Below are positions 6,432-40,003 of a DNA stretch of 64,000 nucleotides, in pieces. Source of the stretch: Gilvimarinus polysaccharolyticus (lineage in GTDB: Bacteria > Pseudomonadota > Gammaproteobacteria > Pseudomonadales > Cellvibrionaceae). The stretch is taken from the NCBI RefSeq assembly GCF_001187555.1, contig NZ_LFIJ01000001.1, positions 1,824,078 through 1,888,077 on the forward strand. The letters are read 5' to 3'. Made by a program: the position numbers and the translations under genes. Numbering within the stretch: the first letter of the stretch is position 1; every line of letters begins with the position of its first letter. The notes under the pieces are model-generated. The model searched no databases and was not told the origin of the DNA. It saw only the letters and a list, made by a program, of their open reading frames with translations.

Positions 6432-6439
6432 GTTGCTAC

Positions 6440-6514: not shown

Positions 6515-6620
6515 TATTCCAAAGCGACGCGGTACCCTTGGCACAATATTATTGCCGCTTGAGCTTTTAGGCACTTCTCTACTACCTACCTCGCTCTGGC
6601 CATTGCCGGGTATCATCGCC

Positions 6621-6646
6621 ACACTGCGCATAGCGCGGTGTTTTTG
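6621..6646 (+). terminator. Rho-independent terminator after tRNA-Gln
   Basis: Nine-base arms ACACTGCGC and GCGCGGTGT (one G-T pair) with a 3-base loop, followed by TTTT. Placed between tRNA-Gln and prs, it probably ends the TPR-lolB-ispE-tRNA transcript. Confidence 0.6.
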
Positions 6647-6708
6647 TATTACCCTTTTAAAACTTAAGGGCAAACAACCCGAACAGCTGACTAACAAAGG
6701 TACCTGAC

Positions 6709-7653: not shown

Positions 7654-7704
7654 TCGCCGGACACCAGCGCTTGGACAACTGCCGCACCAGCGGCTACAAC
7701 TAAC

Positions 7705-7736
7705 CCACGAAACGTTCTGGTCGCGGACCTTCGTGG
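7705..7736 (+). promoter_or_regulatory. Hairpin in the rplY leader
   Basis: Seven-base arms CCACGAA and TTCGTGG enclose an inner hairpin GGTC-GCG-GACC. It sits 22 bases before the rplY start and has no T-run, so it may be a leader structure rather than a terminator. Function is unknown. Confidence 0.4.
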
Positions 7737-7758
7737 ATTTACCTTAAAGGAAACTCTC

Positions 7759-8391
7759 ATGAGTGAAGATTTTATTTTGAATGCTGAAGGCCGTAACGAT
7801 TTAGGGAAAGGTGCGAGCCGCCGCCTGCGTCGTTTGGCTGGCGTGGTTCCTTGTATTGTATATGGTGGCACTAAAAAACCTGCCAGCATTACTGTTAGCC
7901 ACAAAGAACTCACCAAACACCTAGAAAGCGAAGCGTTTTACTCGCACATCATTAGCTTGGTTATCGATGGCAAAGCCGAAGACGTGATCCTGAAAGATCT
8001 GCAACGTCACCCAGCTAAGCCTTTGTTGATTCACGCCGACTTTATGCGCGTCTCTAAAACCAAAAAGCTAAACACTAGCGTACCGTTGCACTTCCTCAAC
8101 GAAGAAACCAGCAAAGGCGTTAAAACTCAAGGCGGCAACATCGTGCACAACATGGTACAGCTGGAAATTAGCTGTTTACCTGCCAACCTGCCTGAGTTTA
8201 TCGAAATTGATCTGGCTGACGTTGAACTGGGCCAAGTGGTACACATCTCAGACATTAAATTGCCTAAAGGTGTTACCTCTGTTGCTTTGGCACACGGCGA
8301 AGATCACGATCTGCCTGTTGTTGCTATCAACAAGCCTAAAGGCTCTACTGCTGATGATGCAGAAGACGCTGGCGAAGCTGACAGCGAGTAA
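7759..8391 (+). CDS. rplY: 50S ribosomal protein L25 (long, general stress protein Ctc type)
   Basis: Binds 5S rRNA in the large subunit. 210 residues: an N-terminal L25 5S-binding domain (about 1-95, '[25 protein letters not shown]') and the extra C-terminal Ctc/TL5 domain, unlike the 94-residue E. coli form. A GGAAA site precedes the ATG at proper spacing. The C-terminus is acidic ('[12 protein letters not shown]'). Positioned prs-rplY-pth, the usual order in this group. Confidence 0.95.
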
Positions 8392-25047: not shown

Positions 25048-25836
25048 TCAAAGCGCGTGTTTTTTTGCCGCCGTATCAAGTAACTCAAATTGACCTGTCG
25101 TTTGTGAATAAGCAATCATGTCAGAATCAAACGCATCACCAATATAGCCATGTTGCAATAACTCCTGTGGCGCAGCACAACGGCATTTACCCTTACCATC
25201 GAGCAGCCATATGGTATCCGCCAACTGTAAAGATAGTTCCAGATCATGACTGGAAAGAATAATCGTCGCCGCATTTTCGGCCGCATATTGTTTTAGCAGC
25301 AACATACTGGCAACTCGTCCGGGTAAATCCAGAAAAGCCGTTATTTCGTCCAACAGCATAACCGTAGGGTTCTGCGCAATGGCTCGGGCGATCATCACGC
25401 GCTGCTTTTCGCCATCGCTAAGATCATCCAAATAACGTCCGGCAAATGCCTGCGCCTGTGTTATTTTCAACGCGTTGTATACATGCTTTTTATCGGCATC
25501 ATTCAGCTGACCTCGCCAACCTGTGTGCGGGTGTCTACCCATGCTCACAGCATCTTCCACGGTTAAGCCAAGACCAAACTGCCTCTCCGTCAAAACCACC
25601 GCGACCTGACGAGCACGCTCCACCGGATTCATTACATGGATATTCTGTCCGGCAATCGTTACCTGTCCAGCCAAAGGCTGCTGCAGCCCAGCCAAAGTGC
25701 GCAGTAGCGTGGATTTTCCGGTGCCATTACGCCCCAACAGGCAAACCAAACCACTATGGGTTTGGATATTCAGGTTCTGCAAAACCGAACCTTTTTCACC
25801 GAAATAACCTACGGTCAAATCTTCCAACTCAATCAT
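25048..25836 (-). CDS. ABC transporter ATPase, FecE/BtuD type
   Basis: 262 residues with Walker A 'GRNGTGKST', signature 'LSDGEKQRVMIARAI' and Walker B 'VMLLDEI'. The ATG at 25836 overlaps the permease stop by 4 bases and gives the typical start 'MIELEDLTVGYFG'; upstream frame lacks family similarity. Drives import of a metal chelate or corrinoid with the FecCD-type permease and lipoprotein binding protein, all transcribed from the Zur-box side. Confidence 0.85.
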   Translation of the reverse strand: MIELEDLTVGYFGEKGSVLQNLNIQTHSGLVCLLGRNGTGKSTLLRTLAGLQQPLAGQVTIAGQNIHVMNPVERARQVAVVLTERQFGLGLTVEDAVSMGRHPHTGWRGQLNDADKKHVYNALKITQAQAFAGRYLDDLSDGEKQRVMIARAIAQNPTVMLLDEITAFLDLPGRVASMLLLKQYAAENAATIILSSHDLELSLQLADTIWLLDGKGKCRCAAPQELLQHGYIGDAFDSDMIAYSQTTGQFELLDTAAKKHAL

Positions 25837-26870
25837 GACTGTCGCCTTACAACGGAAGAAAATACCAACAGAAAAATCACCACAGGCGCGCCAATCATGC
25901 CAAGCACGGCATTGAGGTGAAGAAAATGCGCATCCCAAGGTAAATGCACGATCAAGTCAGCACTAAGAGCTAATGCAGCTCCAGCCAAAGCCGACAAAGG
26001 CAGCAATGGCAAAATTTGTGCAGAGCGAGAAATTGCGCGGGCTAAATGTGGAACAATAAGCCCGAGAAAAGTAATAGGACCGCAATAAGCTGTTACCGGC
26101 GCCACCAAAAGCACCACCGCCAACAAGGTAAGTCGCTGTAAGCGCGCCACATCCGTACCTAAACTGCGAGCATAAGTTTCCCCTAACAGTAAAGAGGTAA
26201 GCGCCTTACCGTTGTTTGCCGCCAATACCAAGCCTGCGCTTATCGGGAGCAACATCATCCCGATACTGTCGAAGCTTGCCGCTGCGAACGTACCATCAGC
26301 CCAACCTGAATAAACTTTACCCCCAACGCGGTTGGCAAAGTGGATGATTACGCTGACCAAGCCTTGCACAGAAAAGCCCAGCATCAACCCCACCACCAAA
26401 AGTGAAATAGTACTCACTCGTCGCGACAACGCCATCATCCCTAAAGCTGATAACAACACACCCAAGCCAGCAGCAAGCGTCAGGCTAAGACCGTCAAAAA
26501 CCTGAATAAACCCGATCGCAGCCGGCCCCACAAAACCAGCAGCAGCTATGACGATGGCGACTCCAAGCTGCCCACCCGCGGTCAACCCGAGAGACCAAGC
26601 ATCAGCCATCGGATTTCGAAATAAGGTTTGCATTAACACACCGCCAACCCCCAGAGCGGCCCCCGCCACAATCGCCATCAAAACGCGCGGCAGACGAATG
26701 TCACTAACAATATGATCGACGGTAAGATTGCCGGAGCTTCCAAATAAAGCTCCGACCACCTCTGAAAAAGTCAGTGCAACTTGCCCAACACTCAGAGAAA
26801 CAGCAACCAATAGAAATAACACAGACGCCAGTACTAAAGCGCCAAGCTGCACGCGGTTACGGCTATTCAT
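25833..26870 (-). CDS. FecCD-family ABC transporter permease
   Basis: 345 residues, about ten membrane helices. The family hallmarks 'RLPRVLMAIVAGAALGVGGVLMQTLFRNPMA' region and C-terminal 'GPITFLGLIVPHLAR' are visible. Imports iron-siderophore, haem, cobalamin or, here more likely, a zinc chelate. ATG at 26870 chosen for a short N-terminus; it overlaps the binding-protein stop by 8 bases. Frame remains open to 26915. Confidence 0.88.
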   Translation of the reverse strand: MNSRNRVQLGALVLASVLFLLVAVSLSVGQVALTFSEVVGALFGSSGNLTVDHIVSDIRLPRVLMAIVAGAALGVGGVLMQTLFRNPMADAWSLGLTAGGQLGVAIVIAAAGFVGPAAIGFIQVFDGLSLTLAAGLGVLLSALGMMALSRRVSTISLLVVGLMLGFSVQGLVSVIIHFANRVGGKVYSGWADGTFAAASFDSIGMMLLPISAGLVLAANNGKALTSLLLGETYARSLGTDVARLQRLTLLAVVLLVAPVTAYCGPITFLGLIVPHLARAISRSAQILPLLPLSALAGAALALSADLIVHLPWDAHFLHLNAVLGMIGAPVVIFLLVFSSVVRRQS

Positions 26871-28077
26871 AAAGAGTCTGATCCGGTTGAATATAACTGA
26901 AGGAATCCTCGTCACGAAGCTCTGGGTGCAGCATGTGCACCAGATCCTTTAACACTAGATCTGGCCGAATGACGGCACCCTCGTAATAGTCATACGCATC
27001 CGCTTGTGGTTTATTCATGCCATCGATAGCGAAGACACAACCATCGCGATAAGCGCGAAACTGCATCAGCGTCTTCTCATCACGAAACGGCTGAGAATGG
27101 CTATCACGTAAAATGGCGCACTCGGCTTCTGCGCCACGCACAATCAATTGCTCTGTACCGAGTTTTTGAAACTCATCGCGCCTTGGGTCATCGGACTCTT
27201 GCAACAGGTTGCGGCCATTGGCATCGCGCAGAAACGCAGCCTCGGAATTGCGCATAGTAGCCATCCACCGACCGCTGCCGCTGTACCACGCAGAAATCAC
27301 ACTTGTGGGCGCAAAGGCGGCCGCTTGAGCCTTGAGCGTCTCAACATTCTCGGTGACCATCTTCACATAAGCTTTAGCCTGTTCGTCCCGCCCGGTTAAC
27401 AACCCCAAAAGTCTGATGTATTCGACTTTGCCCATATAGTGCGGCTCGGAGTTCATAAACATAGGCAAGACCGGCACATCGAGCTGGCGAATTCGATCCA
27501 TCTGATGGCTATGACTTAAATCCCCCATAGCCATTAGCAGCAAATCCGGCTCTGCACTCAAAAGTGCGTCGAGGGTCGGCGGCATATGCCAGCCATAACC
27601 AATCTGCGCGAGCTCTCCATCAAGCACTCGCTGACGTATAGAATCGTTATAAGACTTAGGCCCCCCCACAGCCACCAACCGCTCATCCACACCAAGTGCG
27701 GTTAGCATTGATTCGAACGGTGCCAAATTGACCGCGAGCCGTTCCACCGGCACTCGAATCACCTGCGCACCAGCAAACGCCCCCTCAAGAGGCGGCACGG
27801 TACTATCTGCGGGAACCAATAGCAGTCGCGCTCGCTGCTCCGGTCCTGCAGCCTCGCCTCCCCAGGTTGCAATACTGGCTCGAAGGTCGACTACCCAAAA
27901 CTCACCCTGCCAAGCCGCACTAAACGTCTGTGCAAACTCAAGCTCTATGGGTACCCAGCCAGAAGGCTTGCCAAGCTCTGGCGCGGCCGCTTCACGAATA
28001 CTGGAATCAGTATTTTCTCCACAGCCGGCCAGTAATAAGCTAAGCATAAAAATGCCAGCACTTACGATCCTCACCAC
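26863..28077 (-). CDS. Periplasmic ligand-binding lipoprotein (FecB/BtuF type)
   Basis: 404 residues with a lipoprotein signal (lipobox LLAGC, Cys19). The two-lobe class III binding fold is indicated by 'ALGVDERLVAVGGPKSYNDS' and 'LLSAEPDLLLMAMGD' segments. The Asp-free +2 position (Gly) leaves its sorting undecided. It shares a transcript with the TonB receptor (7-base overlap) and permease. Ligand is unknown; histidines ('SHSHQMD') could contact metal. Confidence 0.84.
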   Translation of the reverse strand: MVRIVSAGIFMLSLLLAGCGENTDSSIREAAAPELGKPSGWVPIELEFAQTFSAAWQGEFWVVDLRASIATWGGEAAGPEQRARLLLVPADSTVPPLEGAFAGAQVIRVPVERLAVNLAPFESMLTALGVDERLVAVGGPKSYNDSIRQRVLDGELAQIGYGWHMPPTLDALLSAEPDLLLMAMGDLSHSHQMDRIRQLDVPVLPMFMNSEPHYMGKVEYIRLLGLLTGRDEQAKAYVKMVTENVETLKAQAAAFAPTSVISAWYSGSGRWMATMRNSEAAFLRDANGRNLLQESDDPRRDEFQKLGTEQLIVRGAEAECAILRDSHSQPFRDEKTLMQFRAYRDGCVFAIDGMNKPQADAYDYYEGAVIRPDLVLKDLVHMLHPELRDEDSFSYIQPDQTLYE

Positions 28078-30269
28078 TGAAACTCCACGCTCGCGCGCAG
28101 CTCGCGCTCAGCCCCAGGAACTGCGTAAGTGGGTACAGTTCGATCGCCAAAATAGAAGTAGTAATCTTCATCTAAGGCATTAAGCGCGGTCAGCTTAATT
28201 GTCGCACCCGGCCACCAAGACGGAAAAATACTTGCTCCCAAAGTTAAAAGATCGTAGCGACCACCGTCGACGCGGTTATCTTGAGTAATTTGATAATCAT
28301 CGTAAAACTCGTAAATCGCACGCACCTCTAACCACGATGCCAAACGATGATCATAGGAAAGATAGAAAGTGTTCTCAGCCACACCAACCGGAGTGGTACC
28401 GGACAAATCAATTTCAGTGCCGTAGCTGTTAATAATATACTCATCCCATTCTGGGTTGATATGACTGGCAGCAATACCCAACCGAGCGTCCGGCGTCAAC
28501 ATATAAGACAACGAAAACTCCACACCTTGGCTGTCGTACTGCTGGCCATAAGTAATTAAATTGGATGGTTGCGAATAGTCGTTCTCTGCAGCCGGATTGG
28601 GAATGCTTGAGCGCCGGTCTTGCTGAAAAGTTTGGAAAACCGCAAGCTCAAGCTGCATACGCTGCTCAAGCGCTGTCGCCTTCCAACCCAATTCATAACT
28701 GTCAATCGTCGTCGGCTTATTTTCTAGACGCGCGTAGTTAGCCGGATTCCACTCAAAGATTGGACCAAAGTTAGAGTTAAATCCCCGGCCGTAAGAAAAG
28801 TAAACATTCCCCACACTACTGTCCCACGACAATGCTACTCGCGGCGACAAGGCATCGGTATCACCACTTAAGTCACCGCTGGCGCTGGAACCCGCCACCG
28901 GCTCAAAGGATGCGTCGCGCTCAAAAGCGTCGTAACGCAACCCCAGCGTAAGAGTCAGCGATTGGCTAAGTGCAATTTCATCTTGAACAAATACACCCCA
29001 CGCAGAGTTTTCCACCTCGTTATCACTGAACGGCAAATCGACAACAAAACAGGGGTTATCGCGGTTGACTATTTCGCCGGTAGAATAATCGACTTCGATA
29101 AGAAAAAAGCTAAACCCACACGCCGCGGTAAATCCGTTTTGACCCGACCACATATCCAGCGCGGTGGAGCTGGCGTGATCCACACTAACACCTGCCACTA
29201 AGTCATGATGATCATTATGCCAATTCACACTGCCATCAAAAACCACAGCGTCTTGAGTTTTTTCACTGCGAAAACCATTAACCGCGTAGATATTTCTCTC
29301 GGGCGAAAAGCCAAAAGAGTCATAAAAGTTAAAGGAGTTTTCACGCTCACTACGTCGCAACTGCAAAGAACTTGTCAGCGATAGGTTTTCATTAAAAGAA
29401 TGATCAAGCTTTAGTGTGCCGACCCATAATTGCTGATCGTCCTGAGGCTCACCAAACCCGAGAAACGCGGTGCGCCCGCCGGCCACCGGCAGTACGTTGC
29501 CAACATTATCGAGCGGCAGACCATTAGGAGCCTGCTTTTCGGCATCAAAATAATTTAAGTAGGCGGTTAAATCTGTCTGCTCAGCAATAGGCATTTCCAG
29601 CTTGCCAAATAAATTGATTTTGCTATAACCACCCTGTTCTCGCCAGCCATCGTATTCGTCGATCGTTGCATCCAAAAGCACACCCGCACCATTGCTCAAC
29701 TGACGCGTCAGAGAGCCTTGACCACGAAAGTAACCATTGCTTCCGCCACTTAACGATAACCGAGTTTCATTTTCATCCACCGCTTTGGTCATGTAATTAG
29801 CTAAACCGTAAACAGCCCCACGACCATACAAAGTAGACCCAGGTCCTTTAACCACCTCGATTCTATCGATTACGCTATATGGAATCTGGTCTAATGGCGC
29901 CTCTTCGAATACACCCACGTAAGGAATACCGTCGATTAGCGCGAGATAACCATCAGTTCCCGGAGAACCGCGAAAAGAAACAAACGGATAGAGATCCCCC
30001 CCACCCTCACCACGCCGAAAAGACACCCCTGGGACACCACGAAACTCATCGGTTCCATAGGTAAAGCCATTTTCCTGCAGCGCTTCCATTTCTTGCACGC
30101 TAATAGACATCGGGGCATCTTGAATATTCTTTTCAGTGCGAGTTGCCGATACTATTATCGTTTCGATGGCACTCGAACTGCTCTCAGGCACATCAGCGAA
30201 ACAAATACTTGGCATAGCCAGTATCAAAACCAATTCCGCCAACCGGCGCGTTATCAAAACTTTCTTCAC
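28071..30269 (-). CDS. TonB-dependent receptor preceded by a Zur-like box
   Basis: 732 residues: signal peptide, TonB-box-like 'ETIIVSATRTEKNIQDAPMS', plug with 'IDRIEVVKGPGSTLYGRGAV', and a barrel ending 'ASVEFQW' with a terminal aromatic residue. It is the first gene of a four-gene importer; a Zur-like dyad lies 81 bases upstream (30350-30362). This points to zinc-dependent expression and uptake of zinc or a zinc carrier, though the receptor body alone would also fit siderophores. Confidence 0.87.
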   Translation of the reverse strand: MKKVLITRRLAELVLILAMPSICFADVPESSSSAIETIIVSATRTEKNIQDAPMSISVQEMEALQENGFTYGTDEFRGVPGVSFRRGEGGGDLYPFVSFRGSPGTDGYLALIDGIPYVGVFEEAPLDQIPYSVIDRIEVVKGPGSTLYGRGAVYGLANYMTKAVDENETRLSLSGGSNGYFRGQGSLTRQLSNGAGVLLDATIDEYDGWREQGGYSKINLFGKLEMPIAEQTDLTAYLNYFDAEKQAPNGLPLDNVGNVLPVAGGRTAFLGFGEPQDDQQLWVGTLKLDHSFNENLSLTSSLQLRRSERENSFNFYDSFGFSPERNIYAVNGFRSEKTQDAVVFDGSVNWHNDHHDLVAGVSVDHASSTALDMWSGQNGFTAACGFSFFLIEVDYSTGEIVNRDNPCFVVDLPFSDNEVENSAWGVFVQDEIALSQSLTLTLGLRYDAFERDASFEPVAGSSASGDLSGDTDALSPRVALSWDSSVGNVYFSYGRGFNSNFGPIFEWNPANYARLENKPTTIDSYELGWKATALEQRMQLELAVFQTFQQDRRSSIPNPAAENDYSQPSNLITYGQQYDSQGVEFSLSYMLTPDARLGIAASHINPEWDEYIINSYGTEIDLSGTTPVGVAENTFYLSYDHRLASWLEVRAIYEFYDDYQITQDNRVDGGRYDLLTLGASIFPSWWPGATIKLTALNALDEDYYFYFGDRTVPTYAVPGAERELRASVEFQW

Positions 30270-30349
30270 CTTATCTCCTTAGTCATTGAACGTATATGCA
30301 GCCCCACCGAAGAACTTCAGTTAGGATAAATCAACCCTACAATCATTAT

Positions 30350-30362
30350 GTTATAACATAAC
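30350..30362. promoter_or_regulatory. Zur-like box upstream of the TonB receptor
   Basis: GTTATAACATAAC, a 13-base dyad GTTAT-N3-ATAAC, within an AT-rich tract. The same 13-mer recurs at 37266-37278 and, reversed, at 30640-30652, each time before zinc-related genes. Confidence 0.75.
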
Positions 30363-30613
30363 AAAAACAATCTCCAACACAAAAGAGATTTAGCCGCCGG
30401 GATCATCACTCAATCGAGCCCTAGCCGCCAGGAACAAGCCGTTACCACCGACTGGCGATTAAAGATGAAACCCGTTAGACGCAAAAACCGTGCATAAGCT
30501 GAACGCGCAAAATGCGCCCGGAACCATTAACAAAGACATTCAGGACACTAGCAAACCCACAAAGCCAACCGTGGAGGAAAGCCCCACACTCGTAACCCCG
30601 AAGCTGATAACCA
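30363..30613. other. Intergenic spacer without recognisable gene
   Basis: Between the two Zur-like boxes. A short open frame can be read to the right but has no ribosome site or known family. No riboswitch core was recognised. Confidence 0.4.
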
Positions 30614-30654
30614 TTGACGAGCCTTCAATTACGCGATATGTTATGTTATAACAT
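30614..30654 (+). promoter_or_regulatory. Promoter of the zinc operon with overlapping Zur-like box
   Basis: TTGACG (30614-30619) and TATGTT (30637-30642) are 17 bases apart. The dyad ATGTTAT-GTT-ATAACAT (30638-30654) covers the -10, so a bound Zur dimer would block RNA polymerase. Prediction. Confidence 0.7.
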
Positions 30655-30680
30655 TACGAGCAATTTACGTAAGGACACCA

Positions 30681-31055
30681 ATGAAAGACGAAACCGCAGC
30701 TTTCTGCTCAGGCTTGTGCCTGATTCACTGTATTGCCACGCCAGTCTTACTGTCGCTGGGAAGCCTGGGACTGATAGGAAGCATTTTCACCTCCGAATGG
30801 TTCCATGCAGTGCTCTTTGCCCCCATTGCGATACTGGCACTGGTAAGCCTACCCAGCGGTTGGAAACGCCACCGCCGCTGGCCACCTAGCGTCGCGGCCT
30901 TTACTGGTCTTGCTCTGCTATTGGCTGCGATGTTCGCACCGCACGAGGCAGAGGCCATCCTATCAATCAGTGGCGGACTGTTACTGATTGGCGGCCACCT
31001 CGGCAATCGTTTCCATTGCCGCCAAATGTCACAGGGCGAGGATGTCGCATGTTAA
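30681..31055 (+). CDS. MerC-family membrane protein (first copy)
   Basis: 124 residues with three or four helices and the metal-binding pattern 'GLCLIHCIATP' (CxxHC), as in MerC. C-terminal Cys and His residues ('RFHCRQM', 'DVAC') may also bind metal. MerC was described as a mercury carrier, but here it is the first gene of a zinc-controlled operon, so a zinc carrier is more likely. Overlaps dksA by 7 bases. Confidence 0.78.
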   Translation: MKDETAAFCSGLCLIHCIATPVLLSLGSLGLIGSIFTSEWFHAVLFAPIAILALVSLPSGWKRHRRWPPSVAAFTGLALLLAAMFAPHEAEAILSISGGLLLIGGHLGNRFHCRQMSQGEDVAC

Positions 31056-31453
31056 CCAAACAACAGCTGTGTAAGGCGCCGGCCTCTGACTACATGAATG
31101 AAGCCCAGCGGGATTTTTTTAAAAACAGCTTGTTGAGCCTAAAACAACAGGCTCAGGCACATATCGAGACAATCAAACAACAACTGGCAAACCCGCCCGA
31201 GTGCAATGATGAAGCCGACCGCGCTCAGTACGAAGACGATATGTATCTCAACCTGCGGCTAGTCAATCGCGAACATCTCTTGGTGCGTAAGATCGACAGC
31301 GCCCTGCGTCGCCTACAAACCGGCGAGTACGGTTATTGTCAGGAAACAGGCGATCCAATTGGTATAGCGCGATTACTTATTCGGCCGACCGCAGAGTTTG
31401 GCACGGACTCTAAAGTAATTAATGAAGAGAAAGAGAAGTTCTATGCAAGCTAA
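31049..31453 (+). CDS. dksA2: Zinc-independent DksA paralogue (DksA2)
   Basis: 134 residues. DksA binds the RNA polymerase secondary channel with ppGpp. The coiled coil and '[20 protein letters not shown]' region match, but of the four zinc-finger cysteines only the first remains: the others read T (QET), G and S ('FGTDSK'). This is the pattern of the zinc-free backup DksA2 of Pseudomonas. Starts inside the MerC stop and overlaps the next gene by 11 bases. Confidence 0.87.
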
Positions 31454-32651
31454 AACAATCAAACTGCCGGTCACCGTGTTATCTGGGTTTTTAGGCGCAG
31501 GTAAAACAACTGTACTGAACCATATTCTGCACAACCGCGACAATCGCCGAGTGGCGGTTATCGTAAACGACATGAGCGAAGTGAATATCGATGCCGATTC
31601 GGTGAAAAGCGATATCACCCTTAACCGTAGCGAAGAAAAACTGGTAGAGATGAGCAATGGCTGCATTTGCTGCACTCTGCGTGAAGATCTACTGCTGGAA
31701 GTGCGGGCCTTAGCCGAATCGGGAAAATTCGATTATTTATTAATAGAGTCAACCGGAATCTCCGAGCCTTTACCGGTAGCCGAAACGTTTACCTTTGCCG
31801 ATGAAGATGGCGTCAGCTTATCCGACATCTCTCAACTGGACACCATGGTTACCGTAGTAGACGCCGTCAACTTCAGTGCCGAATACGAATATGCCAAAGA
31901 CTTAAAACAGTCGGATGAAAGCTTAGGGGAAGACGACGAACGCAGTGTGACCGATTTATTGGTCGAGCAAGTCGAGTTTGCCGATGTGATACTCATCAGC
32001 AAAACCGACTTGGTCGATGAACAAGCGTTGCAGCAACTGCAAGGCTTGTTACGCGGACTTAATCACGATGCCGAGATTGTGCCCATTGCTAACGGAAAAG
32101 TACCAATCGATAAAGTCCTTGGAACTGGTCGGTTTGATTTTGCACGCGCGCAGCAATCGCCCCTATGGTTAAAAGAAATGCGTGGTGAGCACACACCGGA
32201 AACGGAAGAGTATGGCATTGGCAGTTTTGTTTACCGTGCGCGCCGGCCTTTTCATCCAAACAAGTTTTTCGATTTTATTCAAAACCCCGCCCCCACCGGT
32301 CGCCTAATTCGCTCCAAAGGTTATTTCTGGCTCGCCTCACGACCTGAACTTGCAGGACAATGGAGCCAAGCTGGCGGCATCGCCCGTTACGGAGCGGCGG
32401 GCATGTTCTGGCACGCCATACCAAAACAATACTGGCCAGAAGATGAAGACACCCTTAATTTTATTAAAGAAAAGTGGCAGGAGCCCTTTGGCGATATGCG
32501 CCAAGAATTGGTATTTATCGGTCAGGGGCTGAATGAAGCCAGCATTATTGAGCAGTTGGACGCATGTTTATTAAGTGATGACGAATTAATTGCCGGCAAA
32601 GAGTGCTGGAAAAAACTGCCCGATCCGTTCCCCTCATGGAGTGATGCCTAA
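31443..32651 (+). CDS. COG0523 GTPase, zinc metallochaperone candidate (ZigA/YciC-like)
   Basis: 402 residues. Walker A 'GFLGAGKTT' near the N-terminus and the metal-binding '[12 protein letters not shown]' (CxCC) define COG0523; 'SKTDLVD' is the nucleotide-specificity motif. A C-terminal CobW_C domain follows. Proteins of this kind in Zur regulons are thought to hand zinc to essential enzymes. ATG at 31443 gives '[18 protein letters not shown]'. Confidence 0.9.
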
Positions 32652-33313
32652 TGCAAAATACCGCCATGGTTTCAGCCACACACTTTAGTGTTAGCCAGAG
32701 CACTGATCCGGCTGTTTTTACCAATATTTACGATGCCGACATTAACCTTTGCGTATGGCAACGTGAGCTTAGCAAAGAAGTCACGCAATACAGTGACTTC
32801 TTACTCAATCAACACCCCTACGCGACAGAACTACGTTTATCCGGTAACGCTAAAGAACTGGAATTAGAGCTCGGTAATAATTTGCCCGCACACAACCAAC
32901 AACAAAGTTTTATTAGCAATGTCGGCTTATTGGCCGAGATGCTAACTTGCCTGCTCGGGGCAAAGGCTGTGGGGCTTCGCCTATGTGTTGCTAGCAAAGC
33001 CACCTGCCCGCGCTTTCACGTAGACAAACTCGGATGCCGCTTAATTACCACGTATCGAGGTAAAGCTACCGAGTGGTTAGACAACGCCAATCTCGACCGA
33101 ACCAAATTAGGCCGCGGAGCCAAGGGGCAGGACGACAGCAAAACAGGCCTTTACCCTAATTCGAAAATCATTCAGCAGTTGAACTTTGGTGATGTAGCTT
33201 TATTTAAAGGCGAGCTTTGGCCGGACAATGAAGGCAGAGGCATTATTCATCGTTCGCCCTCCCTGAACGAGAGCGAGCGTCGACTATTTATCACCATGGA
33301 TGCGATCACGTGA
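32651..33313 (+). CDS. DUF1826 protein
   Basis: 220 residues, recognised as DUF1826 from its 'ATCPRFHVDKLGCRLITTYRG' area and Zur-operon position. The start ATG shares an A with the COG0523 stop. 'CPRFHVD' has Cys and His that could bind metal. Function is unknown; this family often accompanies COG0523 genes. Confidence 0.8.
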   Translation: MQNTAMVSATHFSVSQSTDPAVFTNIYDADINLCVWQRELSKEVTQYSDFLLNQHPYATELRLSGNAKELELELGNNLPAHNQQQSFISNVGLLAEMLTCLLGAKAVGLRLCVASKATCPRFHVDKLGCRLITTYRGKATEWLDNANLDRTKLGRGAKGQDDSKTGLYPNSKIIQQLNFGDVALFKGELWPDNEGRGIIHRSPSLNESERRLFITMDAIT

Positions 33314-33915
33314 AACTTTTTAAAAGCTTAAAAAACGCACTTTGTCAGCAACGCATGTTCGCCGCAGCAACAGCACTAGCGTTATCAGTACTTGCAGCGC
33401 CAGCTACTGCGGCAGGCATGCAAGCTCATGCTCACGGTGTAGCTCAACTCACTATCGCCATGCAAGGCGATATCATGGAAGTGGCATTGGTATCGCCGGC
33501 GGCCAATATTGTTGGCTTTGAACACAAAGCCAACAATGCACACGAAAACGCTGTCGTTGCTAAAGTGCAATCACAATTAGAGCAGCCGAGCCTGACATTC
33601 ATCGGTGGCGATTGTGATCTGCATAAAACAATCGTTGATATCGATGAAGTTTCACCGCCTCATTCTGATCACAGTCACGAACATCATGAGCGCGCGCAGA
33701 AACACGCTCAAGAGCACGCAGAGTTAGATAACCACAGTGAGATCAGCGCTCAATATCATTATCGATGCACAGCTAACGAGCGTCCATCCAAGCTAATCGT
33801 TGGCTTATTTAACACATTTGAAGGCATTGAGAGAATCGACGCTATGTGGATTCAACCCGCGGCGCAAGGTAGCGCAACGCTCACCCCAAAAAATACAACA
33901 ATCGAGTTTAAATAA
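33310..33915 (+). CDS. His-rich periplasmic zinc-binding protein (DUF2796, ZrgA-like)
   Basis: 201 residues with a signal peptide ('ALSVLAAPATAAG'). The mature protein begins 'MQAHAHGVAQLTIAMQGDI' and has a His-rich stretch 'HSDHSHEHHERAQKHAQEHAE' in its middle, plus two Cys. The GTG start at 33310 overlaps the DUF1826 stop by 4 bases. By family it should capture zinc in the periplasm for a dedicated importer; the ABC pair 37304-39186 is the candidate partner. Confidence 0.82.
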   Translation: MKLFKSLKNALCQQRMFAAATALALSVLAAPATAAGMQAHAHGVAQLTIAMQGDIMEVALVSPAANIVGFEHKANNAHENAVVAKVQSQLEQPSLTFIGGDCDLHKTIVDIDEVSPPHSDHSHEHHERAQKHAQEHAELDNHSEISAQYHYRCTANERPSKLIVGLFNTFEGIERIDAMWIQPAAQGSATLTPKNTTIEFK

Positions 33916-33920
33916 TAACA

Positions 33921-34388
33921 ATGAACGCTGTTGACAAGATTATCGATAAAGCAGAGCAAATCTGCCTAAACCGAGGCACTCGGTTAACCGCCAAACGCAA
34001 ACAGGTACTGGCGGGGTTGATCGAGTCTAACAAAGCATTATCGGCCTATGAGCTTATCGACTTTTGCGAGAGCCATTATGGCGACACATTCTCGGCCATG
34101 TCGGTATACCGAATATTAGAATTTTTAGAAGAGGAAGGATTAGCGCATAGATTGAATATCGCAAATAAATACGTGGCCTGTGCTCATATTAACTGTGGCC
34201 ATACGCACGAAACACCGCAATTTTTAATCTGCCGAGAGTGCAGTAAGGTTCGAGAAATAAGAATTACGCCAGATGCGATCTCGAACCTTAAAGACAACGC
34301 TTCAGACGCTGGCTTTATGTTAGTGACCCCTCAGTTTGAGATGAGTTGTATCTGTAAAGATTGCGCCCCCCAACAGCCTAACTTATAA
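33921..34388 (+). CDS. zur: Fur-family transcriptional repressor, probably Zur
   Basis: 155 residues. Winged helix N-terminal DNA-binding domain ('NRGTRLTAKRKQVLAGLIES', 'FSAMSVYRILEFLEEEGLAHR') and C-terminal dimerisation domain. Structural zinc Cys are 'CRECSK' and 'CICKDC'; 'HINCGHTHE' is the regulatory metal site. Its place inside a zinc operon with Zur-like boxes makes Zur much more likely than Fur. It probably autoregulates. Confidence 0.87.
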   Translation: MNAVDKIIDKAEQICLNRGTRLTAKRKQVLAGLIESNKALSAYELIDFCESHYGDTFSAMSVYRILEFLEEEGLAHRLNIANKYVACAHINCGHTHETPQFLICRECSKVREIRITPDAISNLKDNASDAGFMLVTPQFEMSCICKDCAPQQPNL

Positions 34389-34430
34389 CCCTTCGATCAT
34401 TGCGAAAATTACGATCAAATAGGATTTTTC

Positions 34431-34859
34431 ATGAAAACCGCACAAATAGTGACTGACAAATTAGCAATAAGTTTATCAATGGCTTGCGCCATTCACTGCC
34501 TCGCCTTACCGCTCATATTGGCATTACTTCCCAGTCTGGCCGCCCTACAGCTTAACCACGAAACCTTTCATATTTGGATGCTGGCAGCAGTCATTCCCAC
34601 CAGCATCTACGCTTTAACCTTAGGCTGCAAGCAGCACCGACGAACTCGAGTGCTGGTATTAGGCGCTATTGGATTAACCAGTTTAGTTCTAGCAATAGCG
34701 TTGGGAGAGGCACGTATCGGCGAGTTTGGTGAGAAAGCATTAACTCTACTGGGAGCAACTTTTGTAGCTACTGGGCACTTAATTAATTACCGTTTGTGCC
34801 GCGCGGTAAAAGTAAATGAATGCGCTTGCCCTGGCGATCGAGCTCGGACGTCATCATGA
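34431..34859 (+). CDS. MerC-family membrane protein (second copy)
   Basis: 142 residues, about four helices. The conserved 'ACAIHCLALP' (CxxHC) matches the first MerC-like protein. A C-terminal Cys-containing tail ('VNECACPGD') is extra. Lies between zur and hisI; overlaps hisI by 4 bases. Proposed zinc permease; not shown experimentally to my knowledge. Confidence 0.76.
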   Translation: MKTAQIVTDKLAISLSMACAIHCLALPLILALLPSLAALQLNHETFHIWMLAAVIPTSIYALTLGCKQHRRTRVLVLGAIGLTSLVLAIALGEARIGEFGEKALTLLGATFVATGHLINYRLCRAVKVNECACPGDRARTSS

Positions 34860-35293
34860 AGCGAGAGTTTTTTATTGGCCTTGAAGGGCACAGCCAAAAT
34901 ACACCATTGCCGTTACCCGAGCTGATTTCACAACTGGCGTTCAACCGAGATGGGTTAATTCCCGTGATTACCCAAGATGTCCACTCAGGCACCATTTTAA
35001 TGTTCGCTTGGATGAATAAAGATGCGTTAGAGCAAACGCTAGCAACCCGTTGTGTTACTTACTGGTCTCGCAGCCGCCAACAGCTATGGATCAAAGGCGA
35101 AACCAGCGGCCATACACAACGTTTAATTTCAATGTCATTTGACTGTGACGGTGACGCCGTATTGTGCAAAATCGAACAGGAAGGTGCCGCTTGTCACACA
35201 GGACGAGCATCGTGCTTTTACCTGGAGGTGGAGCAACAGACACAGAAAGTCTGGGTAACCGGGGGCGCAGGCCGCTCATGTGAAAAACATTAG
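34856..35293 (+). CDS. hisI: Phosphoribosyl-AMP cyclohydrolase paralogue (HisI)
   Basis: 145 residues, single-domain HisI. The Mg site 'DCDGD' and the zinc-ligand region 'ACHTGRASCF' are both present, so it still looks metal dependent. It opens the purine ring of phosphoribosyl-AMP in histidine synthesis. No other his gene is near. Such extra HisI copies are known from Zur-linked clusters, perhaps with better zinc scavenging. ATG at 34856 overlaps the MerC stop (ATGA). Confidence 0.87.
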   Translation: MKREFFIGLEGHSQNTPLPLPELISQLAFNRDGLIPVITQDVHSGTILMFAWMNKDALEQTLATRCVTYWSRSRQQLWIKGETSGHTQRLISMSFDCDGDAVLCKIEQEGAACHTGRASCFYLEVEQQTQKVWVTGGAGRSCEKH

Positions 35294-35366
35294 CCGGTGA
35301 CGACTGAGCTTAGCGTCAGCCGTACCACTTCTTTAAATTTTAAACAAAACCAAGAGTTCATTCATA

Positions 35367-36293
35367 ATGAATATCGCAACAGCATTGCCAGATATCGCCA
35401 AATCCCGTACCAAAGCAGCCAGCGGCTGCTTGCAATGGGTGGGTATGGAGGGTATAGCTGTACCACTTACTCTGGATAGCGGCACAAGCCAACAACAAAC
35501 CATTGCGGCCAAGGCTAATGTGTATGTTAGCCTGGATGACCCAGCCGAGAAAGGCATTCACATGTCTCGTTTGTATGCGCTTCTCAATCAACTGTCGAGT
35601 AAATCTTGTGATAAAGCTGGTCTCGATTCTCTATTGCAGAATATGGTCACATCACAAACAGGAATTAGCCAAAACGCAAAATTCGATGTGTGCTTTGATT
35701 ATTTGATGACTAAGGATTCGCTTTTAAGTAACGAAACCGGCTTTCAGTCTTACCAGATCGAGATCGGCGGACAAATCGTTAACGGTAAATATGACTATCG
35801 CCTTAAAGTCACTGTGCCTTACTCCAGCACCTGCCCTTGTTCCGCCGCACTGGCTCGGCAGCTACTGGCCGACGCCATCGATACACAATTTGATACCGTC
35901 AATATCAGCAAACAGACATTACTCGACTGGGCTAAGAAAACCAGTATCGCCACTCCCCACAGCCAACGCTCTTACGTTTATCTTGATTTATCACTCGGCG
36001 ATAATGCATGGCCATCTTTAACATCGTTACTTTTACAGTTTGAAGATGCCTTGGGGACACCAGTACAAACTATGGTAAAACGCCGCGATGAACAAGAATT
36101 TGCCCGTTTAAACGCCGAGAACTTAATGTTCTGCGAAGATGCCGCACGCAAAATCAAAACGTTGTTAGAACATTCCAACTGGATAGAAGACTATTGGTTT
36201 AAAGTGGAACATCAAGAAAGCCTGCATGCCCATAACGCCGTGGTTATAGATTCCAAATTTCACAATATTAATGAGGTCACCGCTACACTATGA
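35367..36293 (+). CDS. folE2: GTP cyclohydrolase FolE2 (type IB)
   Basis: 308 residues. Converts GTP to dihydroneopterin triphosphate, the first step of folate synthesis, without strict zinc need. The type IB marker '[12 protein letters not shown]' with its catalytic Cys is present, followed by '[12 protein letters not shown]'. Its presence in a Zur-like operon is the classic zinc-sparing pattern (replaces zinc-dependent FolE). Followed by a SEC-C gene with a 4-base overlap. Confidence 0.92.
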
Positions 36294-36457
36294 ACACACC
36301 ACAAAACACCAGCGATGAAATGACAGACTCGTGCTGCGCCAGCTCAAGTTGTTGCGCACCTACAGAGCCGGCAATGCGTAAAACCCCAAAAGTGGGGCGC
36401 AATGATCCCTGCCCTTGCGGTAACGGCAAGAAATTTAAAAAGTGTTGTGGTCTGTAG
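36290..36457 (+). CDS. Small SEC-C motif protein
   Basis: 55 residues, ATG overlapping the folE2 stop (ATGA). It has two clusters of cysteines, '[11 protein letters not shown]' at about residues 14-24, then the SEC-C metal-binding motif '[18 protein letters not shown]' at the C-terminus. SEC-C motifs bind zinc; here the protein may act as zinc store or chaperone. Last gene of the operon. Confidence 0.78.
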
Positions 36458-36688
36458 GTTAACGCTAAAAAATTACTACGGTTATGAGTAAAGCGAGTAT
36501 GGTCGCTTGTTTAACGCTTCGACTTGGCGAATTAAATATCGATCAGCTGTGATTCTACGATAAAAGCTTACACTGAAATTTTCTAATGGCCATTGGGCGG
36601 GTAAAATAATCCAAACCTCGCCCCTCTGGCACAAAGCTTTATTTATGAATAATATCTACGCCGCTCCCGCAAGCATCCAGCAGCAAGC

Positions 36689-37237
36689 TTAGTCCTCTTC
36701 ATACAGCTCCATTTTATCGACGACCATTTGATAGGCGGCCTGAGATACATCTGTTTCGATCAGCTCGACACTTAACGTACCCGACACCCAGTAAGGATAG
36801 TATAACGCATCGAGAATAATGCCCTCTTCAAACGTTGCGTAAATAACCTGATTGGGCGGTGGTGGAGGCAGGTGAATACAAGCACCAAAAAAAGGCACCA
36901 ACAAAAACTCGGTAATACGTTGCTCATCGTCAAACCGTAACGGCACCACAAAGCCCGGCATACGTATCGCTTTACCATCAAATTCAGGCACGGTTGTCGC
37001 CGAACGTAATGCGCGGCTGTAAGGGTCATCTTGAGGCAGGCCCTCCCCTGCAGGAGGCATCTCATCGGCGACACCGCCTTCGGGCACCTCATCTATCCAC
37101 TCGGGGCGATTGAGCAGTGCCTCCAGATCCTCGGGAGGCATCAAATCTGGCCATTCGATCCCCTGATAGTCTTTCGCCCAACCTACCGCGCTAAACAAAC
37201 TCATTAGTAATAGCGCACACATTGACACTGTTTTCAT
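36689..37237 (-). CDS. DUF3299 exported protein (ZrgE-like)
   Basis: 182 residues with a signal peptide ('SLFSAVGWA'). The conserved part 'GKAIRMPGFVVPLRFDDE' and 'FFGACIHLPPPPPNQVIY' (with Cys and His) marks DUF3299. Transcribed away from the ABC pair with a Zur-like dyad between them. In Vibrio cholerae, as I recall, a DUF3299 gene belongs to the zrgABCDE zinc uptake set. Confidence 0.82.
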   Translation of the reverse strand: MKTVSMCALLLMSLFSAVGWAKDYQGIEWPDLMPPEDLEALLNRPEWIDEVPEGGVADEMPPAGEGLPQDDPYSRALRSATTVPEFDGKAIRMPGFVVPLRFDDEQRITEFLLVPFFGACIHLPPPPPNQVIYATFEEGIILDALYYPYWVSGTLSVELIETDVSQAAYQMVVDKMELYEED

Positions 37238-37265
37238 GTAACACCTTGCTAGTCGTAAAACACAC

Positions 37266-37278
37266 GTTATAACATAAC
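37266..37278. promoter_or_regulatory. Zur-like box between DUF3299 and the ABC pair
   Basis: GTTATAACATAAC, identical to the box at 30350-30362, lying in the 66-base divergent spacer. It probably controls both directions. Confidence 0.75.
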
Positions 37279-37303
37279 TAATTCACCACAAGCGACCCAA
37301 AGT

Positions 37304-37975
37304 ATGCTGAACGAACCCGCACTAAACATTAGCGATATCGAATACGGCCATAAACATGGACCGCGTTGGCGCTTGCCCAGCTGGCATATAGCCGCAGGAC
37401 AAACCATCTTTATGCAGGCCCCCTCTGGGACCGGAAAATCTACGCTATTAAACGTACTGGCCGGACTTTTACCGGTCAGTAGCGGCGAACTAACCGTATT
37501 ACAAGAGCCACTGCACCTGCGCCGCAGTGCCCAAACCGCTCAGTGGCGGGCACGCCAGCTGGGTATTATTTTCCAAAATCTTAATTTACTGGACTACCTA
37601 AGTTGCCTAGACAATATTCTGCTGGCCACACACTTTGCTAAAAACCGCGAGCCGCGCCTTGCCGACAAAGCTCGTGAACTTATGAGCCGGCTCAACTTAC
37701 CGCAACAACTGCTGCATAAAAAAGCCTGCGAACTCAGTGTTGGACAGCGACAGCGAGTGGCCATTGCACGGGCGCTTATTAACAACCCTCGGCTAATTCT
37801 TGCCGACGAGCCCACCTCGGCATTAGATAACGATAATAGTCAGGACTTTTTAGCCCTACTGTTTGAATTAGTGCGCGAGCGAGGTTGCACGTTAATACTG
37901 GCCAGCCACGATCAAGGTCTTGGTAGCGCTTTCGATCAACACATAAGCCTGCACGAGTTAAGCCAACCATTATGA
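37304..37975 (+). CDS. ABC transporter ATPase, LolD/MacB type (ZrgB-like)
   Basis: 223 residues with Walker A 'APSGTGKST', signature 'LSVGQRQRVAIARALI' and Walker B 'LILADEPTSALD'. The LolD/MacB kind pairs with an FtsX-domain permease, which follows with a 4-base overlap. Expected from context to power zinc-linked transport with the ZrgA-like binding protein. Confidence 0.84.
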   Translation: MLNEPALNISDIEYGHKHGPRWRLPSWHIAAGQTIFMQAPSGTGKSTLLNVLAGLLPVSSGELTVLQEPLHLRRSAQTAQWRARQLGIIFQNLNLLDYLSCLDNILLATHFAKNREPRLADKARELMSRLNLPQQLLHKKACELSVGQRQRVAIARALINNPRLILADEPTSALDNDNSQDFLALLFELVRERGCTLILASHDQGLGSAFDQHISLHELSQPL

Positions 37976-39186
37976 TGTTACGCCTTGCCATAAAAAGCCT
38001 AATCAGTCGTCGCTTTAGCGCGCTTGTCTGCATCAGCATGGTCGCCTTAAGCGCTATTGCCCTACTGAGCGTAGACACCCTTTACCGTGGCACCCAATCG
38101 GCCTTTGGCCGCAGTGTACAGGGCATTGATTTAATTGTTGGCGCACCCACCGGCGATATTAATCTACTGTTATTTTCTGCTTTTCAAGTAGGTGCCCCCA
38201 GCCGCGAGCTCAGTATGGCTACCTTCACTCGCTGGCAACAGAACCCCAATATTGCCCGCGCGGTTCCACTGATGCTGGGCGACAGTCATAAAGGCTTTCG
38301 GGTCATTGGCACCGATGCCAATATGTTTGAACATATACAAGCGACCACTGGGCATAAAGCGTTTGCCCAAGGCCATGCCTTTAAACATGTTTTTGAAGTA
38401 ACACTGGGTTTTGAAGTGGCGCGCAAACTGGATTACCACCTGGGTGATGAGCTTATCCTCAGTCACGGTTTGGGCCATCACAGTTTCCAACAGCACAAAG
38501 CGCGCACCTTTACCGTGACCGGCATCCTTGCGGCTACCGGCACCCCTATCGACAAAACGCTGCAAGTTAGCCTGGACGGCATCGAAGCCATACATTGGCC
38601 CCCGGCCACACTGGCCACCCTAGCCGCACAGCCCAACATTGGTGAGAACCCCGCGTTAAAACCCGACAGCTTAGCCGCGTTCTATTTAACCTTGAGCAAT
38701 AAAGTACGTACTTTTCAGGTACAGCGATCCATCAACCAAAGCGAAGATGAACTCGCCCAAGCCATACTGCCCGGGGTCGCCATCACTCAGTTGTGGTCTA
38801 TGCTCGATTGGATAGAAGCGGCGTTACTCGGACTAGGCTCGCTGGCAGCACTGATAGCCATCATAGGCGTAGGCAGCACGTTATTAACTCTTTTGGATAA
38901 ACGCATGGATGAGTTTCAACTACTGCAAACTCTAGGTGCTAAAAAACGATTTATTTGTACTCTTTTAGCGGTAGAAACAGCAACCTTAGTCACGCTTGGT
39001 ATGTTAGCAGGGGTTGCTCTAACGGTAATGCTAGAACGAACCCTACTGGGCATAGCACAAAATCACTGGGGGCTGTATTGGCCGCTGGACATTAATTGGC
39101 TCTGGCTGGGCGGGGCCATACTAACACTGCCCCTGATAAGTGGGTTGCTGCTTGCTGGCGTTGGAGCATGGCGGCTGCGAAACTGA
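37972..39186 (+). CDS. FtsX/MacB-type ABC permease (ZrgC-like)
   Basis: 404 residues: one N-terminal helix, a large periplasmic domain (about 60-270) and three C-terminal helices, the FtsX/MacB layout. 'LLTLLDKRMDEFQLLQTLGAKKRFI' is the coupling helix region. A MacB-type permease with a binding protein would be an unusual importer, but this is the arrangement recalled from the Zrg system. Confidence 0.82.
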   Translation: MMLRLAIKSLISRRFSALVCISMVALSAIALLSVDTLYRGTQSAFGRSVQGIDLIVGAPTGDINLLLFSAFQVGAPSRELSMATFTRWQQNPNIARAVPLMLGDSHKGFRVIGTDANMFEHIQATTGHKAFAQGHAFKHVFEVTLGFEVARKLDYHLGDELILSHGLGHHSFQQHKARTFTVTGILAATGTPIDKTLQVSLDGIEAIHWPPATLATLAAQPNIGENPALKPDSLAAFYLTLSNKVRTFQVQRSINQSEDELAQAILPGVAITQLWSMLDWIEAALLGLGSLAALIAIIGVGSTLLTLLDKRMDEFQLLQTLGAKKRFICTLLAVETATLVTLGMLAGVALTVMLERTLLGIAQNHWGLYWPLDINWLWLGGAILTLPLISGLLLAGVGAWRLRN

Positions 39187-39457
39187 CTCTAGGCAGTATT
39201 TATAAATCTGTGTCACGTCTCGACGCGGAGTAAAGAGAGCGTTGAGTAAAAAATATTTACACCGTTTAGGGCTTGGCTCATCGCTTGAGTACAATGAGCG
39301 AACAGAAATATTTTGTGAGCCAGCCGGCAACCTCTGCATGATGAACGCCTTACAACCTGCCTCAAAAAACACTTGGTAGCATCAAATATAGTAACTGGAT
39401 GGTAGTTTTTATGCGCCACTAGTGGCAGAATCGAGAAAAAGGAACAGGGAGCTAACA
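39187..39457. other. Intergenic spacer, boundary of the zinc island
   Basis: 271 bases with no convincing gene. No clear terminator or repeat was recognised. It separates the zinc island from the accessory cluster. Confidence 0.35.
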
Positions 39458-40003
39458 ATGAAGTGGGCTTTTGTGGATTATGAGAATATCGGAAGTTTAG
39501 GGAAGGTAGACCTCTCCAGTTATGCGCGCGTGATTGTCTTTCTAGGTGCCAAGCAACCCAAACTCGACTTTACCGATACCAAATACGACCGCCCCATTAA
39601 TTTGGTCGTCATTCAGCTCAAGGCAGTTCAAGCCAATAATTTAGATTTTCACCTCGCCTACTACCTTGGCAAGTTTGATAGCGAAGCCCCTGCTGGCGTT
39701 GCATTTGACGTTATTAGTAATGACGGTGGCTTTTCTCCCCTAATTGGCCATATCAAAACCAGCGGTAGAGCCTGTAAACAGGTAAAAATCGCTAACACCT
39801 CTCTTGATACGCAAAAGCTCATCGATAGCCTCATGGTTCGGCCTAAAGATAAGCGACCGCAGAAAGTGATAAGTCTTCGCAACCATATCGCTTCCCACCT
39901 TAGAATTAAGGGTAATGAAGTGGCGATTCAAAATCAGCTTAACCAATTGGTTTCTGCCAATTTAATTAGCCTCAACGCTGACGGTGTTGAGTATAAAAAG
40001 TGA
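39458..40003 (+). CDS. PIN/NYN-like domain protein
   Basis: 181 residues starting 'MKWAFVDYENIGSL', with the Asp of the first acidic motif of PIN-like/NYN ribonucleases; further acidic residues are in 'VISNDGGFSPLIGHI', typical for these enzymes. The C-terminal 60 residues look like a winged helix ('IASHLRIKGNEVAIQNQLNQL'). Probably a nuclease acting on RNA. A GGAGC site precedes the ATG. Possibly part of a defence or accessory cluster. Confidence 0.7.
   Translation: MKWAFVDYENIGSLGKVDLSSYARVIVFLGAKQPKLDFTDTKYDRPINLVVIQLKAVQANNLDFHLAYYLGKFDSEAPAGVAFDVISNDGGFSPLIGHIKTSGRACKQVKIANTSLDTQKLIDSLMVRPKDKRPQKVISLRNHIASHLRIKGNEVAIQNQLNQLVSANLISLNADGVEYKK

Follow-up and report, generated by a model that had tools for sequence, protein, structure and literature searches.

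Which regulator controls a zinc-starvation island that carries a Fur-family gene of its own? The question is raised by a stretch of 64,000 nucleotides of Gilvimarinus polysaccharolyticus (assembly GCF_001187555.1, contig NZ_LFIJ01000001.1, positions 1,824,078 to 1,888,077), referred to here at its full length as the window. A preliminary description, made from the letters of the window, had proposed a zinc-starvation island under a local Zur, with three copies of a 13-base dyad in front of zinc-linked genes. Judged by family matches, canonical copies of its paralogues elsewhere in the genome and conserved gene order, the island is of a known kind and well supported, and its boxes are of the Zur type. 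Its Fur-family gene is a diverged Zur paralogue, here called Zur2, and a canonical zur (encoding Zur1) lies elsewhere. We consider it likely that the three units of the island are released on zinc shortage; Zur1 is the most likely reader of the boxes, and Zur2 probably reads them as well.

Three Fur-family genes were found in the genome, namely Fur, the island gene, present where the preliminary description had placed it, and a zur flanked by znuA and znuCB. The latter sits in the znuABC locus on contig C2 with a box of its own, so that 'local Zur' holds for a Zur-related gene inside the island and fails as a name for the organism's Zur. The island gene scored 61.0 bits against E. coli Zur and 74.1 bits against Xanthomonas Zur, versus 98.0 and 118.9 bits for the canonical gene. 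Among 100 genomes of the family, an island-type Fur gene reached at least 115 bits in 51, and all other matches scored 93.4 bits or less. On these comparisons, the island gene is a diverged Zur paralogue and is not filed as the organism's Zur.

To define the subfamily, we compared 41 canonical Zur1 with 41 island-type Zur2 sequences. The recognition helix starts with AMS in Zur2 (Met in 40 of 41, Ser in 39) and with PPT in every Zur1. A three-residue insert, absent from the 41 Zur1, gives Zur2 the motif CxHIxCxHxHxxPQF, in which Cys92 and His94 are each present in 36 sequences and His96 in all 41. An additional cysteine near the Zur2 end, Cys143, was found in 38 of 41, in a tail that the 41 Zur1 lack. 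The structural Cys4 and regulatory ligand positions (C104, C107, C145, C148, H76, C87, H96 and E112) were intact in all 41 Zur2; the corresponding residues of E. coli Zur are taken here to be metal ligands. Tyr45 and Arg65, which contact bases in E. coli Zur, were likewise retained throughout as Tyr43 and Arg64. In an AlphaFold model of Zur2 (mean predicted local distance difference test score, pLDDT, 87.1), the recognition helix spans residues 59-71. The best solved matches of this model were 4mtd (E. coli Zur on DNA, template modelling (TM) score 0.81) and 7dh8, both Zur, and the predicted Fur-family fold would accordingly be closest to Zur. Zur2 is, by its residue pattern, a recognizable subfamily. 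We found no account of a second class of Zur in the text-searched literature, from which subscription papers were mostly absent.

The dyad GTTAT-N3-ATAAC was recovered at exactly 30350, 30640 and 37266, with no further copy in the window; 100 dinucleotide shuffles of the window contained 0.08 dyads on average and never reached 3. Each copy precedes zinc-linked genes, as had been claimed. The dyad at 30350 lies 81 bp upstream of the start of the minus-strand TonB-dependent receptor gene, that at 30640 is 41 bp upstream of the start of MerC1, and that at 37266-37278 is 29 bp from the start of a DUF3299 gene (-) and 26 bp from that of an ATP-binding cassette (ABC) ATPase gene (+). The fuller box is an 18-bp palindrome, GTTATGTTATAACATAAC, which occurs with one mismatch at 30345-30362 and at 30640-30657; it had no match at 37266 even when 3 mismatches were allowed. 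In the parts of the published work that we used, the E. coli Zur operator reads RNNNYxxxRNNNY where a single dimer binds and RNNNYRNNRYNNYRNNNY where two dimers overlap (PMC4219657). GTTATGTTATAAC agrees with the former and GTTATGTTATAACATAAC with the latter at all fixed positions, giving one-dimer 13-mers at 30350, 30640 and 37266 and overlapping two-dimer 18-mers at 30345 and 30640. Each dyad is the one-dimer core of this operator. Between boxes 1 and 2, about 280 bp (30363-30639) hold no assigned gene, and a minus-strand stem resembling a terminator (30570-30588) was not above chance.

The outcome of the genome scan that had been suggested for the 13-mer depended on the form searched. The loose form occurred at 8 places, as did a reversed-pattern control, and failed to discriminate, whereas GTTATGTTATAAC occurred at 4 places versus 0 for its backward control. 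Three of these four are the island copies. The fourth, at C2:187903, stands upstream of a TonB receptor gene whose product has a His-rich loop and adjoins a His-rich protein; as read from the sequence alone, the two are ZnuD-like and AztD-like. In this locus (L007, G000:C2:180000-196000), the receptor and His-rich protein genes (4127-8026) lie behind GTTATAACATAAC, and a COG0523 gene is found on the opposite side. The divergent promoter of znuA and zur1 contains a fifth exact 13-mer with another centre, and the last 3 of the 8, on contigs C1 and C2, are inside open reading frames.

We then typed the boxes by base 2 of every GWTRY half-site, using perfect sites only. The island motif search was confined to non-coding stretches, as the coding starts of ZigA and YjiA otherwise dominate. 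Canonical znu promoters had a site in all 41 Zur1 loci, with a base 2 count of T77:A4:C1. The islands of nine Zur1-only genomes, fetched via DUF1826 and including the Gilvimarinus genome G075, gave T24:A0; two of the 11 rows had been excluded from this set, G052 (no Zur match) and G086 (fetched by its box). Zur2 islands gave A209:T105 where residue 58 of Zur2 is proline (96 loci) and A11:T61 where it is another residue (24 loci), neither set being dereplicated and 8 loci being untypable by the pattern. Zur2 islands in most lineages examined carry GATAY half-sites, and canonical znu boxes carry GTTAT. Among 16 two-Zur genomes outside Gilvimarinus, namely those with both loci in hand and a perfect island box, the island held more A than the znu promoter of its genome in 14, less in 1 and as much in 1; the sign test gave 0.001, a value that is too small because the 16 genomes are related.

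Two simpler assignments failed. GTTATGTTATAAC is not a Zur2-specific box, as Zur1-only genomes also carry it, and a Zur2 box in all znu promoters of Zur2-only genomes was ruled out by a perfect degenerate site in only 5 of 17 loci, of mixed kind. No Zur2-type box was seen in the znu promoters of genus g4; in its genomes (G074, G085, G091, G095 and G097) the Zur2 query matched nothing, not even a canonical Zur, yet znuB and its neighbours are kept. Separately, five of the 41 Zur1 lack a cysteine at the position of E. coli Cys88 (L117, L118, L119, L120 and L122, the znu loci of G057, G006, G069, G012 and G007, respectively). Three of these loci, all from genus g12, also show A-type half-sites in their znu box, which would fit a takeover of znuABC by Zur2 in that genus.

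Residue 58 lies just before the Zur2 recognition helix. After removal of identical proteins, the rule 'proline at 58 with A' held in 88 of 100 loci (Fisher 1.4e-9); these 100 were the rows with a perfect box among 124 distinct rows, 5 loci without exactly one Zur2 match and 3 with stops or short matches having been dropped beforehand. Ranked by association with box type, residue 58 came first among the Zur2 columns, residue 57 second (1.1e-6) and the next at 9.7e-5. Because the other columns evolved on the same tree, the ranking controls in part for descent. We regard the link between residue 58 and the half-site as a strong lead that falls short of proof. Gilvimarinus Zur2 carries Phe57-Ser58, and the islands of this genus have GTTAT boxes.

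The scan of named genomes for Zur2 gave 301 matching stretches. The counts are based on 80 of them, from Gilvimarinus, Porticoccaceae, Colwellia, Vibrio, Photobacterium, Methylophaga and others. At 73 of these 80 loci, the fetched stretch contained one or more specific zinc-island genes. The class-wide set has no clean cut, as at least one of the high scorers fetched (L291) has the canonical PPT helix. Three loci (L054, L209 and L264) each contain two Zur2-type genes. In Gilvimarinus, Zur2 was kept in 6 of 8 genomes. G075 has no Zur2, MerC2, HisI2 or FolE2 beside its island and retains MerC1, DksA2, ZigA, DUF1826 and ZrgA behind GTTATAACATAAC, as in the window.

These observations suggest the following scheme. 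When zinc is sufficient, zinc-loaded Zur dimers would occupy the boxes, with a pair of dimers on each 18-bp box, and would silence the TonB/BtuCD-like importer, the ten-gene operon and the DUF3299/ABC pair. Falling zinc would release the three units and with them uptake, delivery and replacement functions. The genome encodes two Zurs, the canonical Zur1 beside znuABC and the island-borne Zur2. The window boxes are most likely read by Zur1 because their GTTAT half-sites match the islands of Zur1-only relatives; G075 keeps the box without Zur2, so the canonical Zur most likely reads it in Gilvimarinus. Since Ser58-type Gilvimarinus uses GTTAT, both Zurs may read the window boxes. Zur2, encoded by the sixth gene, would then restrain its own operon, and two sensors would share one operator. 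The GATAY half-sites of most other Zur2 lineages would point to a separate operator there. Support comes from the ZnuD-like receptor gene, preceded by the same box, and from znuA/zur1, preceded by a related one. The boxes, the genes, the paralogues, the synteny and the statistics on boxes and residues are observed; the zinc response, the binding, the single transcript, metal import by MerC and the sharing of boxes are what we infer.

A wider reading is conceivable but less likely than not. Zur2 may be a second, distinct class of zinc-starvation repressor in marine Gammaproteobacteria with its own GATAY operator beside the canonical GTTAT one, in which residue 58, by being proline or not, sets base 2 of the half-site. 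In Gilvimarinus and some further lineages, that residue would have changed and the islands would carry the canonical operator, two zinc regulons having merged; MerC2, often found beside Zur2, would be an inner-membrane zinc importer, and HisI2 would bind its metal more tightly rather than being zinc-free.

Several results weigh against zinc control of the island by the two Zurs as proposed above. Zur2 stays under the NCBIfam Zur (PRK11639) cut-off (87.2 versus 167 bits). The Asp49-Arg52 pair that bridges dimers in E. coli Zur was not found, Asp47 being present but Glu50 replacing the salt-bridge arginine; an arginine at this position is rare in both groups, Zur1 having mostly Ala (26/41) and Zur2 mostly Asn or Lys (Arg in 5/41). 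The loose 13-mer is not enriched genome-wide (8 versus 8 for the backward control), box 3 consists of the 13-mer only, and the promoter-like match at box 2 is at chance level (1 found, 0.6 expected). Seven of the 80 Zur2 loci had no specific zinc-island neighbour in the fetched stretch. When residue 58 was tested against box type with the tree taken into account, two runs left 3 and 1 supported independent pairs, with which significance is unreachable; allowing unsupported branches gave 9 and 10. In these pairs the box either changed in the matching direction or stayed alike, and the 200 random pairings held few exceptions.

The most serious alternative is that Zur1 alone reads the boxes and that Gilvimarinus Zur2 does not repress the island, having another ligand or target or simply drifting. 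The same box before MerC1 in G075, which has no Zur2 match, would fit this, as would the uniform T-type half-sites of the nine Zur1-only islands and the GTTAT boxes that non-Pro58 Zur2 lineages likewise carry. However, Gilvimarinus Zur2 retains the metal ligands, Tyr43 and Arg64 of its subfamily, its place in the operon is kept in the five relatives examined, and most genomes of the genus have it. We regard exclusive control by Zur1 as unlikely, if clearly conceivable. Zur2 might also sense something other than zinc, with Cys92, His94 and Cys143 tuning it to redox or to a different metal, so that the zinc island would receive a second signal. The high conservation of these residues, in an insert and a tail absent from all 41 Zur1, speaks for such a role, but the eight canonical ligand positions are intact in every Zur2 and the neighbours are zinc genes, making it improbable.

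The version in the preliminary description, which takes the island gene for the organism's Zur and lets it alone regulate the boxes, draws on the position of this gene in the operon and on Zur being its best NCBIfam match. Given that a canonical zur with a separate box lies between znuA and znuCB, and given the greater distance of the island gene from both known Zurs, we consider it very improbable. Finally, two Pfam MerC domains could mark a metal-resistance island of the mercury type. Neither MerC protein reaches the NCBIfam MerC cut-offs, no mercury reductase or MerR was present among the annotated genes from 25048 to 39186 by the families found, and the surroundings are zinc boxes and zinc paralogues; a mercury island is scarcely credible. 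We retain as likely an island read by Zur1 and probably also by Zur2.

The features are listed in Table 1. The left edge of the island differs from the preliminary description, as the divergent importer facing box 1 had been omitted; the island extends leftward to 25048. Two MerC-like proteins and a SEC-C mini-protein had also been overlooked. Rightward of box 2, ten genes follow in the order MerC1, DksA2, ZigA, DUF1826, ZrgA-like, Zur2, MerC2, HisI2, FolE2 and SEC-C, with 6 of 9 junctions overlapping and a widest gap of 73 bases. This order was unchanged in the five other Gilvimarinus loci examined (L043-L047). A PIN7-domain protein (39422-40003) lies directly right of the island.

Table 1. 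Features of the island in window coordinates, with the basis of each assignment
Feature	Position	Strand	Basis or remark
ABC ATPase, BtuD-like	25048..25938	-	Open reading frame and position beside FecCD permease only
FecCD/BtuC-type permease	25833..26915	-	Pfam FecCD 5.6e-60
Periplasmic binding protein	26863..28077	-	Pfam Peripla_BP_2 1e-10
TonB-dependent receptor, divergent from operon	28071..30269	-	Pfam plug and barrel
Zur-type box 1	30345..30362		18-mer, 1 mismatch
Zur-type box 2	30640..30657		18-mer, 1 mismatch; overlaps end of weak -10-like hexamer
MerC1, MerC-domain membrane protein	30681..31055	+	Pfam MerC 2.1e-27
DksA2, C4 finger lost	31049..31453	+	Pfam DksA_N; NCBIfam dksA below cut-off
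ZigA, COG0523 GTPase	31443..32651	+	NCBIfam ZigA 687.5 bits, cut-off 600
DUF1826 protein	32651..33313	+	Pfam 5.9e-58
ZrgA-like His-rich periplasmic protein	33310..33915	+	Pfam ZrgA 4.9e-43; NCBIfam 91.8 of 185 bits
Zur2, diverged Zur paralogue	33921..34388	+	Pfam FUR; NCBIfam Zur 87.2 of 167 bits; subfamily comparison
MerC2, MerC-domain membrane protein	34431..34859	+	Pfam MerC 6e-31; conserved CxxHC and His
HisI2, second phosphoribosyl-AMP cyclohydrolase	34856..35293	+	Pfam PRA-CH 6.9e-35; extra Cys104
FolE2	35367..36293	+	NCBIfam FolE2 302.2 bits, cut-off 215
SEC-C protein, 55 aa, CC...CC head	36290..36457	+	Pfam SEC-C 3.1e-08
DUF3299 protein	36689..37237	-	Pfam 9.6e-43
Zur-type box 3	37266..37278		13-mer, between divergent genes
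ABC ATPase (LolD/MacB type)	37304..37975	+	Pfam ABC_tran 5.4e-29
FtsX/MacB-like permease	37972..39186	+	Pfam FtsX, MacB_PCD

DksA2, FolE2 and HisI2 are true paralogues, because a second DksA with a C4 finger, FolE1 and an ordinary HisI exist elsewhere in the genome. That DksA2 and FolE2 serve as replacements, as had been suggested, is supported by their families, these canonical copies and synteny. DksA2 retains one of four finger cysteines, as expected of a zinc-free paralogue, and the canonical copy at C2:1566473 has CxxC...CxxC. FolE2 and the putative metallochaperone ZigA both pass their NCBIfam cut-offs; the ZrgA-like protein misses the NCBIfam cut-off and reaches that of Pfam ZrgA (147.3 versus 27.4 bits).

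HisI2 does not fit the replacement role claimed for it. The cysteines of DCD and CHxGxxSC, which we take to be zinc ligands, were kept in all 33 distinct island copies and in all 21 ordinary copies, and the loss of metal-site cysteines expected of a zinc-free paralogue was not observed. Moreover, HisI2 has an extra cysteine (Cys104), four residues after the last Asp. It was present in 32 of 33 distinct island copies, at 21 of 21 loci (16 distinct copies) in a motif count restricted to island copies whose aligned stretch contained the motif, and in none of 21 ordinary HisI of the family. The idea that this cysteine is a known zinc ligand absent from ordinary HisI was ruled out, as the solved HisI 1zps lacks it too. 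As the metal-site cysteines are retained and one is added, the label 'zinc-sparing' is not supported by the sequence; a tighter or altered metal site is just as likely a description. The passages seen of Haas et al. (2009, PMC2770081) likewise state that HisI paralogues keep the zinc residues and that DksA paralogues lose the C4 finger.

The SEC-C protein has a CC...CC head and a CPCG...KKCC tail, conserved in 16 distinct copies. It could possibly be a small zinc carrier made under zinc starvation.

The Pfam MerC domain was found in both MerC proteins. MerC1 stayed below two NCBIfam MerC cut-offs (20.9 of 140 and 20.7 of 170 bits), and MerC2 matched neither model at E 0.01. MerC2-query matches occurred at 50 of the 80 Zur2 loci, and at 48 of 80 a MerC lies at most 400 bp from Zur2. 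Among 62 distinct MerC2 sequences, C19-x-x-H22-C23, His47 and His69 were invariant, and Cys66 and His116 nearly so, a pattern that indicates a metal-handling membrane protein. The MerC family includes mercury-importing members, and by analogy with these MerC2 may import zinc. No description of MerC within a Zur regulon was found in the same text-searched literature, again with subscription papers mostly outside it.

If the operators of Zur1 and Zur2 differ at one base tracked by one residue, nature would have set up an experiment on shifts of DNA specificity in the Fur family, and on the splitting or merging of two metal regulons. Candidates are also supplied by the island for unknown zinc functions in MerC2, DUF1826, DUF3299, the SEC-C mini-protein and the HisI with an extra cysteine, the last of which argues against an easy 'zinc-sparing' label.

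In the parts of the report consulted, P. aeruginosa PA2911-2914, PA4063-4066 and PA5535-5541 were all upregulated under zinc limitation (PMC4542158). These sets resemble the island by gene type, in a TonB and BtuCD-like importer, a His-rich protein with an ABC pair, and COG0523, DksA2 and FolE2. They occupy three separate loci, with one Zur mentioned in those parts, whereas Gilvimarinus has one island. A second HisI, hisI2, also belongs to the zinc-limitation response of Pseudomonas protegens, according to the portion seen of PMC6103462. With E. coli Zur on PznuABC (4mtd/4mte), as covered by the passages used from PMC4219657, Zur2 shares the predicted fold (TM 0.81), the Tyr and Arg base contacts and the operator skeleton; it differs in AMS for PPT at the recognition helix, the Cys/His insert and Glu for Arg52. 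The Zur-regulated COG0523 clusters of Haas et al. (2009, PMC2770081) contain, like the island, COG0523, DUF1826, DksA and HisI paralogues, FolE2, zur and Zur sites; MerC proteins, a second Zur and an extra HisI cysteine do not appear in the passages seen of that paper. The kind of island was already described in 2009; what is new is a Zur2 subfamily that such islands carry and that has a half-site preference of its own.

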